This document shows positions 7,786-12,150 of a DNA stretch of 64,000 nt, one piece after another (within the stretch, counting starts at the first letter, position 1; the number at the start of each line of letters is the position of its first letter). This DNA is from Dermabacteraceae bacterium TAE3-ERU5. Its GTDB lineage: Bacteria > Actinomycetota > Actinomycetes > Actinomycetales > Dermabacteraceae. The position numbers and the translations under genes are program-made. The stretch covers positions 124,001-188,000 of the forward strand of contig JAHUUK010000003.1 of assembly GCA_019218375.1 (NCBI GenBank), written 5' to 3'. Below the pieces are notes generated by a model. The model was not told the origin of the DNA, made no database searches, and was given only the letters and a program-made list of their open reading frames with translations.

Positions 7786-7798
7786 TTGCGCCGCACCC

Positions 7799-7855
7799 TG
7801 ACGTTTGGGTGCAGTTAGTGCTGGTAATCCCCACGCCTTAACGTTTGGGTGAAAC
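7799..7855 (+). repeat. Half copy of a dispersed intergenic palindromic element
   Basis: Two copies of ACGTTTGGGTG (7801, 7841) are separated by GCAGTTAGTGCTGGTAATCC and CCACGCCTTA. The stretch closely matches the reverse complement of 28933-28990, including spacing and spacer sequence. It is therefore one arm of the element described at 28473-28610 and 28853-28990. Confidence 0.75.
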
Positions 7856-7964
7856 TAAGTACACCTCCTGAGCATAGGGGGCATAGTTACAATCACCGAT
7901 AGCCCCGGGAACCTGCGCACAGGGTTTACGCGCCGAATCGTTGTTTACCCGGAGTTCGCCCGTA

Positions 7965-8505
7965 CAGGCTCAGATGAGCTCACTGCGGCATCCACCTCTA
8001 CCCACGCTTGTCGAAGCACCGCCGCGACGGGGTCGATGCTGTCGAACGATAGCGACTCGACCTGTTACGCAAGCTAAGCGCTGCGGGCTGCTGGACGGTT
8101 CTGGAGGAGTACATCGACAACGATTCAGCCAGCGCCTTGGCGCTGCGTAATCGTAAGGGGTGGCGGCAGTTTAACCAAGGCATCTAGGCAGGCAAGGTGC
8201 CTGCCGTGGCCTTCTGGAAGCTGGACCGCACCAACCGAATCGCTTCATAGTGCATCGAGTGGATCGGACAGTGTCAAAGGGGTTTGTGTGTACTTGGTCT
8301 TGCACGAGGACGGTGACCAGGAACTGAACACTGCGACAGCGGTCACGAAGTTAATCACAGGCATCAAGGTTCTCTTGGCGGAAGTTGAGACTGGCTCGAT
8401 GAGCGAATGGCAGCCCGCTGCAAAGTGACACCTGGCGGAAGCAGGGTTCCATAACGGAAGAGCGTCACCCTTGGGTGAATGGCAGGCCCTTGCATCACCT
8501 ACGAC
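7965..8505 (+). pseudogene. Decayed serine recombinase (phage/ICE-type integrase remnant)
   Basis: No intact frame exists, but conceptual translation shows a large serine recombinase N-terminal half. From about 8059 it reads LLRKLSAAGCWTVLEEYID, then NDSASALALRNRKGWRQF, an in-frame TAG, AGKVPAVAFWKLDRTNRIAS, and a further TAG. After a frameshift near 8270 it continues with LLAEVETGSMSEWQPAAK, a TGA, and HLAEAGFHNGRASPLGEW. The blocks EEYxDNDxSAS, VxFWKLDRTNR and AEVETGxxSE are diagnostic of the family. An STSTxxCRS-like patch near 8000 may be the degraded SIERQR element. The catalytic N-terminal serine region and the DNA-binding C-terminus are not recovered. It marks past integration of a mobile element. 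Confidence 0.8.
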
Positions 8506-8611
8506 TATGGACGCAGTGGCGTTCGCTTCTGTCGGTTCCACGAGTTATGTTGCGAAGTGTCTACTCAAGGACACAGAGGTGCCATAAAACAGCAGGCATA
8601 CACTCGCATAC

Positions 8612-8628
8612 GTACGTGCCGCACGTAC
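8612..8628. repeat. Perfect 7-bp inverted repeat
   Basis: GTACGTG-CCG-CACGTAC lies 11 bp beyond the 3' end of the methyltransferase gene. No T-run follows on either strand, so it is not an ordinary terminator. It could be a protein-binding site or part of a recombination site; this is speculative. Confidence 0.45.
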
Positions 8629-8639
8629 ATGGGTAACAG

Positions 8640-9518
8640 CTATGCCGACACCCACGAGGCATTGGCAGCTTTGAGAAGTCGGATACTATCAACGTAGAGT
8701 CGCTCACTGAATACAACTATTTCCGTGCCGATATGTTGGCGTTGCGCGGTATGAGCGATGTTAAATCGTGCCATGCGCAGCCCGGAATAGAGTTCTTCGG
8801 TAATGCGCTCACTGACGTCATAGGTCAGCATCCATGGGGTTGGGGACTCGCGCAGTTGTTCTGCGAGGAGTCGGTGATCATCGGGTGACAATGAATCGAG
8901 GTATAGACCTTCGCCCTGAACAATGTAGGGAGGATCAACATAGGCGAACGCGTCCTGTCCTAGATGTTCGAGAGTCTTCATGAAGTCCCGTCCATCCAGT
9001 TGAGAGACCTCTACCCGCCTGCGGTACTGCCCTAGGCGGCGCACTCGTTCCGCAAGGTCCACCCGGTTGAATCGTGCGTCAATTTTCCACTTGCCGGTCT
9101 GATTCATCCCCCCGATTGGGCGTGCCGTGAGGATGCCGGAGCGATTGCATCTGTTCAAGAAGAACGTCGCGAATCCTAGTTCGAGGTCCGTGCGATCAGA
9201 GGGACTCTGAAATACTTGACGTGCTTGTTCCCAGTGCTCTAGGTCAACAACGGCTGTTTCTACCTGTCGAGCGAACCGTTCAGTGTCATAGAAGACGCAC
9301 CTCCAGAAGGCCGCGATTCCTGGCGAAAGGTCGTTGATGCGTACCGAGCGCACTTGCTCATCGATGAGTAGACGAAGGGCCGCGCCTGCGCCACCAGCGA
9401 AGGGCTCTGCATAGATCGTGGGCCGAGGGGACTGCGTGCGCATCAGCGATGCGAGATAAGGGGCAACACGGGCTTTGCCGCCCGGATACCGAAGTGGACT
9501 GAGAAATGGATGACTCAC
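8640..9518 (-). CDS. D12-class DNA adenine N6-methyltransferase (Dam family)
   Basis: 292 residues. It transfers a methyl group from S-adenosylmethionine to N6 of adenine in double-stranded DNA. The D12 layout is complete: LRYPGGK at 9-15, the SAM-binding EPFAGGAG at 38-45, the NRCNRSG and NQTGKWKIDARFN blocks (~122-151), and catalytic DPPY at 195-198. The target-recognition segment is unassigned, so the methylated sequence is unknown. GTG at 9518 is the start; it overlaps the TGA of the upstream ParB-like gene (GTGA), implying translational coupling. The pair lies in AT-richer DNA next to recombinase debris. No restriction endonuclease is recognisable nearby. Confidence 0.93.
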   Translation of the reverse strand: MSHPFLSPLRYPGGKARVAPYLASLMRTQSPRPTIYAEPFAGGAGAALRLLIDEQVRSVRINDLSPGIAAFWRCVFYDTERFARQVETAVVDLEHWEQARQVFQSPSDRTDLELGFATFFLNRCNRSGILTARPIGGMNQTGKWKIDARFNRVDLAERVRRLGQYRRRVEVSQLDGRDFMKTLEHLGQDAFAYVDPPYIVQGEGLYLDSLSPDDHRLLAEQLRESPTPWMLTYDVSERITEELYSGLRMARFNIAHTAQRQHIGTEIVVFSERLYVDSIRLLKAANASWVSA

Positions 9519-11023
9519 GCCGCGCTATTACCAATGAGTTCGTTTAGGCCTTCTAGCACCGGGCGGAACGTTTGGCTCAGGTTTCGCACTTCACTAGGGG
9601 CCGCATTACCCTGGATATTGTGAACGAAAGCATTCAAGGACTGGATAGCCAACCCGTCGTTATCTTGAGTTCTGATCCAGGCCATTTCCAGTGACTTATC
9701 TCGTTTAGTCGGGCTGCTACATTCAGGGTCAAGTGTCAATAGCGCGCAGCGAACCTTCTTTTTGAGAGAATCACCCTCCTTTGCGTCGAGCACAACTCCG
9801 AGCTTAATAGCCTCCGTAACCGTGAGTTCCAGGAGTACACGTACCAGTATCCCGCTGACAGGCGCCGCATCAACGATATTGATCTTCTGGGACATGCTGA
9901 GCAGTTCTCTAATCTGTGGGTTCAGGTAAGGCATCTTCAACGATTTAAAGATCACGTTCTCCTGAGGTGAAGTCTTCCCGCCCCGGCCCCTTCTGGAGGC
10001 TCCGCCGCCGTTGTTCGGCTCGCTACCGCCCGACGCTCTGTTTCTGTTTCCGCCTGTTACCGGGGCGCTCCCCGGATCGGTTCCAGCCCCGGACGTACCA
10101 CTAGCGCCACCAGCGGTACCGACACCGTCATTCCTATCCTCATCCGGCTTATCTGATTTGTAGTGCTCTCCGGGACGCCTGGGAACGGAGAGTCGGTTCG
10201 CTCGATTGGGGAGCACCTCAGAGCGATCGGCAACGTACTTAGACCGTTGGGCTTTCGACTTGATATCAGTAACGCTTACACCACCGGTTCTCGCCGCGAG
10301 GTCACTGAAGATACGACTTACGCTAGCGCGAAGGTCGTCAGTTTCATATTCAAAGAGCAGTTCGTCATCGTCGAACCGGAACCCGAACTCACGACGCACG
10401 TCCGGGTCTGCGACCAAACGCCCTAGGGTTGTCAAGCGTGCTTGACGTACTTCCGCTACATCAGACATAAGCTGGGTCTCGCCCGAGAAATCAACCTCGA
10501 CCGCCTCACAGAATAGCGCGGCACGGTCGGCCTGACTGCCTCTCCTGCGCCGGTAGTTATTGACCTGCCATGGTTTCCACCCAATGACACCCACGCCATC
10601 GTTCTCGCCGGTGTGGCGCAGTTCAATCCAATGTCGGGCAGCCTCGCGGTTCTCCGCCTGAAAAGCATTAATTGATTCCGGACCGGTGCCAACCTTCTGG
10701 AGCGCCTTGAACTTCTTGACGAGGGGTGTGCCCAACTCGGCTGCTGCCGTCGCTGCGAGGTCGGGATTGCGAAGTAGTTTTAGCGCGGCGAGCCGCCGGT
10801 TTCCCTCAATAACCACCAAATCACCATCTTCCTCAATGATCACTGGGAGTTCTGTTGGGTTGAGCGATCCCTCCGTTGCGATGTCCTGAGCAAGGCTGAA
10901 GAGTTTGTCGGCGGAGTCTAGAAGGAGGGCGGTGATTGCTTCATCCTGTCCATTAACTTGCTCTTGAAACCGAGGATTTTGTTCGTCTAAGAGTAGGCTG
11001 GACACAGCCTCGTTGATGACCAC
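9515..11023 (-). CDS. ParB/Srx-fold protein coupled to the adenine methyltransferase
   Basis: 502 residues, function unknown. The N-terminal ~110 residues resemble a ParB/sulfiredoxin domain: LLDEQNPRF (11-19) and LPVIIEEDGDLVVIEGNRRLAAL, with the signature EGNRR at 73-77. A mostly helical middle region (~110-290) is followed by a Gly/Ser/Asn-rich disordered linker (~290-365). The C-terminal domain (~366-502) has a conserved-looking LNAFVHN motif. It lacks the helix-turn-helix arrangement of partition ParB, and there is no parA nearby, so plasmid partitioning is unlikely. ParB-like folds act as nucleases or NTPases in some modification-dependent defence proteins; a role linked to the coupled methyltransferase is inference. 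GTG at 11023 has AAGGGG seven bases upstream. Confidence 0.75.
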   Translation of the reverse strand: MVINEAVSSLLLDEQNPRFQEQVNGQDEAITALLLDSADKLFSLAQDIATEGSLNPTELPVIIEEDGDLVVIEGNRRLAALKLLRNPDLAATAAAELGTPLVKKFKALQKVGTGPESINAFQAENREAARHWIELRHTGENDGVGVIGWKPWQVNNYRRRRGSQADRAALFCEAVEVDFSGETQLMSDVAEVRQARLTTLGRLVADPDVRREFGFRFDDDELLFEYETDDLRASVSRIFSDLAARTGGVSVTDIKSKAQRSKYVADRSEVLPNRANRLSVPRRPGEHYKSDKPDEDRNDGVGTAGGASGTSGAGTDPGSAPVTGGNRNRASGGSEPNNGGGASRRGRGGKTSPQENVIFKSLKMPYLNPQIRELLSMSQKINIVDAAPVSGILVRVLLELTVTEAIKLGVVLDAKEGDSLKKKVRCALLTLDPECSSPTKRDKSLEMAWIRTQDNDGLAIQSLNAFVHNIQGNAAPSEVRNLSQTFRPVLEGLNELIGNSAA

Positions 11024-12029
11024 TCGCGCCCCTTACCTGGTGTACCCATTAACCATCACAGGGTATCATCGTGAGCCCCTCGTTACGGGGTCGTCGACAA
11101 GGTGCGTGACCGGCCGCGAGAACGAGAGAGGGAACGCTTGGGCGCCCCAAACGCACACTTCATCCCCGGTCAGGAGAGTGACTCCGTGGCCTTCGGGCCC
11201 TTGAGTGCCGTAGCGGCAAAGGAGCCGTCATGGTGCACGACGTCGGCGCTGCCGAGATGCGTGTCTCCCTGTTGAGGCTCAGTGCTGTGTATGGGGGATC
11301 GCGTGTAGCAAGCAAAGTGACGATTCTGCCCCAGTCAGCGCGAGCCAGAATCGCTGTATGTCCAACGCCAGAGGACAACATGGAGTCACTGTTGTCTCCA
11401 GCTGCCGTCGACGTGGGACCCCCGCAGTGTGCGCTTTGACTGTTCTGTAGCTCGTGCCGGAGAACCGCTATGCCCAAGCCAGTGCCGCCTCACGGTCGGG
11501 AACATCGCATGGACCAGGGCTGCCTTAGTCGCTGGGAAGGGACCGTCTTCGATGACTATCTTTCCGCTGTGTCGCATCACCGTTTAGGCGGTCAGCGACG
11601 GGGTGAGCATTTTGGTGGCAACCTGACTCCGGATGCCTCGAGTGTGTCGGCAAACTTGGTCATCAACTGCCGCATCTCGGGCGTCTCCTCTGTCGAAGGC
11701 CGCTCCAGAGGGCTGAGGCTTGGTTCCTCAGCTTGGAAAGCCAGTGCGTATCGCACATTGGAGTTCCCCTTATTATCACTACTCAGGGAGAGTCCCATTC
11801 GCCCTCCTGCACTAGAGACGGTTCAACGACCTCACTTTTGACATCTGCCACACGCTCCTCCGGGTGGACAGGCCCTGCACTGCTGTGCAGTTCCCTCCGG
11901 GCGTGATCCTGTGACCCGCACCAGGCTAATGTTGTGTCTCCATTGGGGGCTTTCTATCTGGTGGCGAGGGATGTATTGGGATGGGGTGGATGGGTGCAGA
12001 AGGATGGGGGCGGGGGCAGACATAGCAAA
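11024..12029. other. Gene-free, probably degraded stretch of the island
   Basis: About 1 kb with no convincing intact gene. Short open stretches on the minus strand (11592-11798, 11386-11580, 11160-11477) have plausible amino-acid composition, e.g. TPEMRQLMTKFADTLEASG and VIEDGPFPATKAALVHAMF, but lie in different frames with stops between them. This would fit an eroded gene upstream of the ParB-like gene. None matches a family I recognise. Confidence 0.45.
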
Positions 12030-12059: not shown

Positions 12060-12065
12060 CATCTG

Positions 12066-12150
12066 CGGAGGATGGGGGATTTGAACCCCCGAGGGCTTGC
12101 ACCCAACACGCGTTCCAGGCGTGCGCCATAGGCCGCTAGGCGAATCCTCC
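12066..12150 (-). tRNA. tRNA-Ser (anticodon GGA)
   Basis: Minus-strand cloverleaf with acceptor stem GGAGGAT/ATCCTCC, anticodon stem-loop CACGC-CTGGAAC-GCGTG (anticodon GGA), a long variable arm typical of tRNA-Ser, and T-arm GGGGGTTCAAATCCCCC. Discriminator base is G and CCA is not encoded. It bounds the island on the right. Confidence 0.95.

Follow-up and report, generated by a model that had tools for sequence, protein, structure and literature searches.

PD-Lambda-5 was found by phage challenge in P2-like prophages of E. coli, where it was validated as blocking phage, and its authors regard it as an RM+Abi system in compacted, prophage form (Vassallo 2022; PMC9519451). It was tested in an E. 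coli host without the mrr region, and protection was strongest against T-even phages, whose DNA is modified (PMC9519451); the selection that yielded it was made with lambda, whose DNA is neither glucosylated nor hydroxymethylated. The system is listed among those with a HEPN domain (PMC11811056), and in Actinobacteria it has been noted to reside frequently in prophages (PMC10482375). The literature that we searched gave no biochemical mechanism for it. Other described systems share some of its features. GmrSD, SspE and DndI join a DUF262 ParB-like module to an HNH effector (PMC11662687, PMC12839542), and a survey of HEPN proteins reported ParB-HEPN fusions as well as a MAE_28990 HEPN in an operon with a ParB nuclease and a DNA methylase (Anantharaman 2013; PMC3710099).

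A divergent actinobacterial copy of a known defence system

The stretch analysed here (64,000 nucleotides from Dermabacteraceae bacterium TAE3-ERU5, hereafter the window) carries gene A (9515..11023, minus strand, 502 aa, GTG start) and gene B (8640..9518, minus strand, 292 aa, GTG start), which overlap by 4 bp reading GTGA. Gene B encodes a D12-class adenine DNA methyltransferase with intact FAGGAG and DPPY motifs; its D12 domain is confirmed by Pfam and it also matches PADLOC MTase_II (Type II D12 class, E=7.6e-73). B is the sole D12 methyltransferase of the host genome, in which no paralogue of A was found. Gene A comprises a ParB/Srx-like N-domain (residues about 1-137, EGNRR at 73-77), a helical middle (about 150-290), a disordered linker (about 297-350, low-confidence in the AlphaFold model) and a HEPN/DUF4145-like C-domain with the LNAFVHN motif (about 353-502; R395, E399, H468). 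A sequence-only reading of this DNA had already given both this layout (a 502-aa ParB-like protein overlapping a complete D12 methyltransferase by 4 bp) and this anatomy of A (EGNRR, disordered linker, LNAFVHN C-domain), correctly in each case.

Both proteins match PADLOC models over their full length, A the PD-Lambda-5_A model (PDLC04007, E=1.3e-168, residues 4-499) and B the PD-Lambda-5_B model (PDLC04018, E=3.3e-106, residues 5-281), and the genes are adjacent, as is required of PD-Lambda-5, through their 4-bp overlap. Judged by these profiles, the pair is almost certainly a PD-Lambda-5 system, distant but intact, actinobacterial and of phage-defence type. This identification removes a candidate "undescribed system": the proposal of an undescribed modification or defence module was right as to modification-linked defence (PADLOC PD-Lambda-5, the E. 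coli version being phage-protective; PMC9519451) and wrong as to undescribed. What is new in the window is a divergent actinobacterial copy of a known defence system, not a new system.

The E. coli system likewise consists of two genes, a ParB-like A with a HEPN-like C-domain and a D12 methyltransferase B immediately downstream, and fits the same PADLOC models, at 27% (A) and 41% (B) identity to the window proteins. Its genes are, however, separated by 69 bp, in contrast to the 4-bp translational overlap in the window, and they are flanked by the replication endonuclease and portal genes of a P2-like prophage, whereas the island of the window pair is small, actinobacterial and devoid of phage genes. 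At an identity of at least 99%, the E. coli pair is present in 22 of 5,426 complete E. coli genomes; 105 further records match only part of the query, at 60-80% identity.

Compared by description of layout, GmrSD, SspE and DndI share with A a ParB/Srx-fold module, a comparable acidic-Gly-polar-x-Arg motif and a joined effector domain, but that effector is HNH, not HEPN-like as in A, and they have no cognate D12 methyltransferase. The ParB-HEPN and MAE_28990 proteins of the 2013 survey show the same combination of domain types as the window (Saro_3948 and MAE_28990 being matched by domain types only, not as orthologues); most of these proteins have an intact HEPN motif, whereas A does not. As in Type II restriction-modification, a D12-class methyltransferase is tightly coupled to one partner gene; unlike there, the partner A is no known restriction endonuclease, and neither A nor the neighbours scanned with Pfam showed an endonuclease family.

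The pair lies on a small island beside a tRNA gene

A congeneric sister species has about 103 bp in place of window positions 7859..12012, between the same flanking genes (91-94% DNA identity), which delimits an island of about 4.15 kb holding the A/B pair. The pair thus lies in a recent 4.15-kb insertion, unless the sister species had a deletion. GC content is 55-57% in the 8-11 kb region versus 62-68% around it, and an intact tRNA-Ser (GGA) (12065..12150, minus strand), also present at the sister's empty site, stands beside the island; the AT-richer DNA and adjoining tRNA gene of the sequence-only reading are thus both borne out. No direct or att-like repeat of the tRNA end was found at the island borders, and no phage genes were seen on the island. 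Its only trace of mobility is a stop-ridden serine recombinase N-domain remnant (8048..8260, plus strand, VLEEYIDND...FWKLDRTNR), in which a stretch of 58 aa gives a PF00239 (Resolvase) match with E=0.0048, below the curated cut-off. The decayed serine recombinase reported earlier therefore corresponds to this remnant, at about 8.05-8.25 kb, and is a likely but weakly supported assignment.

Some relatives of the pair reside in P2-like prophages, others on a conjugative plasmid or in viral contigs. On the plasmid, from Kosakonia (L005 1939-4800), an intact serine resolvase gene directly precedes the A-B pair; the window pair sits beside a decayed one.

The neighbours of the pair in the window encode a purine permease, a Tag glycosylase, a secreted-looking protein and an SNF symporter, and no parA was seen among them. 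Promoter and terminator signals at the locus did not clearly exceed shuffle expectation. Just outside the island, 21-nt repeats with the core ACGTTTGGGTG occur at window positions 7791-7811 and 7831-7851; they are kept at the sister's empty site, plus an inverted imperfect third copy, and are possible operator sites.

Both genes are under selection and A is paired with B

A pair from Leucobacter luti has the identical 4-bp overlap and shares 79% (A) and 91% (B) amino acid identity with the window pair, against about 60-62% identity at third codon positions; dN/dS is about 0.18 for A and 0.05 for B. Given these low ratios, and the excess of protein identity over that at third positions, the genes are maintained by selection and are not decaying: A and B are not chance ORFs, and both are under purifying selection. 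The suggestion that the pair might be the remains of a larger cassette finds no support, since both genes are intact and selected and the two-gene relatives show no third gene. The range of PD-Lambda-5 now includes a small-genome actinobacterium, in which the unit is intact and under selection and the empty site of the sister species provides a clean control.

Homologues of A were gathered independently of B, by a profile search with the EGNRR region and from actinobacterial genomes. B lies directly downstream (overlapping or within 85 bp) in 57 of 58 distinct full-length A homologues, with 42 of the 57 pairs co-directional and 15 convergent. A common operon is impossible for convergent genes, so the link between A and B is functional and not merely transcriptional. 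The sequence-only reading had named two grounds for abandoning its proposal: homologues mostly lacking the methyltransferase are not what we see, and a match to a characterised family is, the family being a known defence system. The sole A without B belongs to Vibrio phage 10N.286.54.E5_PE002 (L007 1-3284), where the gene downstream is convergent and encodes a 426-aa protein whose end is HNH-like. When viral contigs were scanned with the A sequence alone no match appeared; the profile scan did give matches.

This pairing also bears on a type IV-like, modification-dependent restriction, in which A would attack modified phage DNA and B would have a separate role. The layout of a ParB-like sensor with an effector does parallel that of GmrSD, SspE and DndI (PMC11662687, PMC12839542), and E. 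coli PD-Lambda-5 acts best against T-even phages with modified DNA. Yet such systems need no methyltransferase, while A has one in all but one of its 58 homologues, and the selection succeeded with lambda, whose DNA carries neither of the two modifications named above; we consider this reading improbable.

At one further locus (L030 6887-10651), the A homologue stops before the C-domain and reads into a RecD-like helicase ORF, which is probably a fusion or a truncated system.

The N-domain of A has a ParB/sulfiredoxin fold

In an alignment of 70 distinct full-length homologues of A, the invariant or nearly invariant positions are D13, N16, R18, G52, E73-G74-N75-R76-R77, H137, W149, R395 and H468; within EGNRR, E is kept in 67, G in 69 and N-R-R in all 70. 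An AlphaFold2 model of A built with 39 homologues reached a mean pLDDT of 85.5, and Foldseek matched its N-terminal part to nucleotide-bound ParB structures and sulfiredoxin (7bnk, 6sdk, 6ky4) with probabilities of 0.94-1.00. As modelled, the N-domain has a ParB/sulfiredoxin fold with a nucleotide-binding motif. In partition ParB proteins, the Glu of GERR serves CTP hydrolysis. In A, this Glu is replaced by Asn (GNRR) in 70 of 70 homologues, so that NTP binding is predicted as likely while hydrolysis is uncertain and may differ or be lacking.

The ParB/Srx fold could in principle mark a remnant of a plasmid partitioning (ParABS) locus. The invariant GNRR in place of GERR, the lack of any ParB match to A in Pfam or NCBIfam and the absence of parA from the neighbouring genes listed above all speak against such an origin, which we give practically no credence. 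Searches of A against the PDB with phmmer and hmmsearch gave no convincing homologue, and a Pfam match to DNA_pol_B_thumb (E=0.17) was judged to be chance.

The C-domain of A is related to DUF4145-type HEPN domains

Modelled alone, residues 353-502 of A form a confident helical domain (pLDDT 90.8, pTM 0.87). Foldseek gave no significant match for this domain alone, with HEPN proteins (Csm6, a HEPN toxin) among the better-probability hits. When aligned with hhalign to a profile of 27 DUF4145 domains, the C-domain matched over 108 columns (P=3.6e-5, prob 71) with a score of 33.8, against 14.4 for the reversed control and 16.2 for the best of 50 shuffles, and the alignment pairs R395/E399 and the N-x3-H468 motif. 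DUF4145 is part of the HEPN superfamily (PMC3710099), and at the profile level the C-domain is akin to HEPN domains of the DUF4145 type. A lacks, however, the canonical Rx4-6H motif of HEPN RNases: H468 is present in all 70 homologues and an Arg at H-5 to H-7 in 2 of them, R395 and H468 sitting on different helices. Since this motif is missing, RNase activity of A is not to be assumed. Other candidates were rejected, namely PDB matches of the C-domain to coiled-coil or designed proteins and an alignment to DUF5677 (P=0.16).

A HEPN-like domain would also suit an abortive toxin-antitoxin or addiction module, in which A is a toxin checked by B or by its methylation, the pair mainly stabilises the island and phage defence is secondary. 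The island carries almost nothing besides A and B, B accompanies A in 57 of 58 cases, and DUF4145/HEPN domains are known in Abi and RM contexts (PMC3710099). Against this, the homologous E. coli system was found and validated by phage challenge (PMC9519451), and the RNase motif of A is not canonical. As the main function, addiction thus seems rather unlikely, although it overlaps with defence by self-marking.

A proposed mechanism for the pair

In the account that we propose, an actinobacterium acquired this PD-Lambda-5 anti-phage system with a small island, and B self-marks while A senses and acts; taken as a whole, it is probably right. B would methylate adenine within a short motif of host DNA as a self-mark, a role that we consider quite probable. 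With the invariant E-G-N-R-R of its ParB/sulfiredoxin-fold domain, A would bind an NTP, and it would survey DNA or the infection state. On meeting unmarked, replicating phage DNA, it would act through the HEPN-like C-domain (invariant R395 and H468), with the outcome that the invader's nucleic acid is destroyed, the cell is shut down, or both; B would then double as an RM-type modification enzyme and an antidote to A. That the HEPN-like domain is the effector is a fairly good bet, and missing methylation is slightly favoured as the trigger over another infection signal. Family membership, domain make-up, pairing, selection and presence or absence in the sister species were computed, and from these we infer the marking by B and the sensing by A.

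Mrr cuts some m6A-modified DNA (PMC12707154), and the mrr-deleted host is consistent with an active methyltransferase in E. coli PD-Lambda-5, a connection between mrr and methylation that is ours. If the deletion reflects B activity, the E. coli B should methylate a motif sensitive to Mrr; GATC alone is improbable, because Dam-methylated K-12 tolerates Mrr. The comparative data break PD-Lambda-5 down into parts that can be tested separately: the domain that would read methylation, the candidate acting residues (R395, H468, EGNRR) and a possible exchange of methyltransferases between effectors.

Related methyltransferases have exchanged their partners

Outside the window, close relatives of B without A have directly upstream an AAA_15/AAA_21 ATPase (510-580 aa) that resembles AriA/PtuA/GajA (OLD/AriA-like) and has a TOPRIM-like C-part (L121, L122, L123, L127, L129, L139, L140, L142, L147, L148, L153, L154). 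Other loci carry a short A homologue (A', 360-395 aa) without the HEPN-like domain, followed by gene X (~330 aa) and a methyltransferase, often convergent. This methyltransferase is of D12 class at L088, L089, L096, L098, L099, L101, L105, L109, L116 and L143, of cytosine-5 type (classed by motif) at L100, L102, L106-L108, L111-L115 and L117, and of N4/N6 type (classed by Pfam) at L087. Protein X has a conserved KDxGID...QVASGxNW..K, PD-(D/E)XK-like by eye, and gave nothing beyond marginal chance matches in Pfam, NCBIfam and PADLOC; these loci look like an undescribed restriction-modification-like system. The C-domain of A showed no kinship to X (P=0.39), and a lead from the PDC-M38A model ended at an AAA ATPase protein, not an A'-X fusion.

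A tree of 100 B proteins requires at least 11 partner changes among three states, a soft count because a few "short A" labels are full-length genes cut off, though the starred branches alone force several. Two methyltransferases that are 82% identical have A as partner on one contig and an OLD/AriA-like ATPase on the other. That the methyltransferase stays while the effector changes, and that the sensor accepts methyltransferases of differing chemistry, supports methylation as the self-mark.

The same exchange bears on an orphan methylation regulator, in which A governs the expression or access of B without being an anti-phage effector. A and B are tightly coupled, and a regulatory role has been suggested for some ParB/Srx proteins, DndB among them (PMC10853773). 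However, A is exchanged for ATPase or nuclease-like partners, its HEPN-like C-terminal domain is conserved, 15 of the 57 pairs are convergent and hence non-operonic, and the E. coli homologue is protective, which makes pure regulation very unlikely.

Tentatively, one D12 lineage may serve as the self-mark while three kinds of effector are repeatedly swapped: ParB-HEPN, an ATPase of OLD/AriA-like type that has a TOPRIM-like part, and a short ParB plus a separate PD-(D/E)XK-like protein, the short ParB working with methyltransferases of m6A, m5C or N4/N6 class; we regard this as possible but less likely than not. If true, the ParB-like module would serve generally to read the absence of methylation and could license different killers. 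Neither the partner exchange nor the ParB-X-methyltransferase arrangement was found described as such in the databases and literature searched, and we offer both as leads. In one genome of the window host's own family (L023 8481-11972, G012), the order is A-B-A': a single methyltransferase stands between a full-length A on one side and a short A' on the other, and all the genes overlap.
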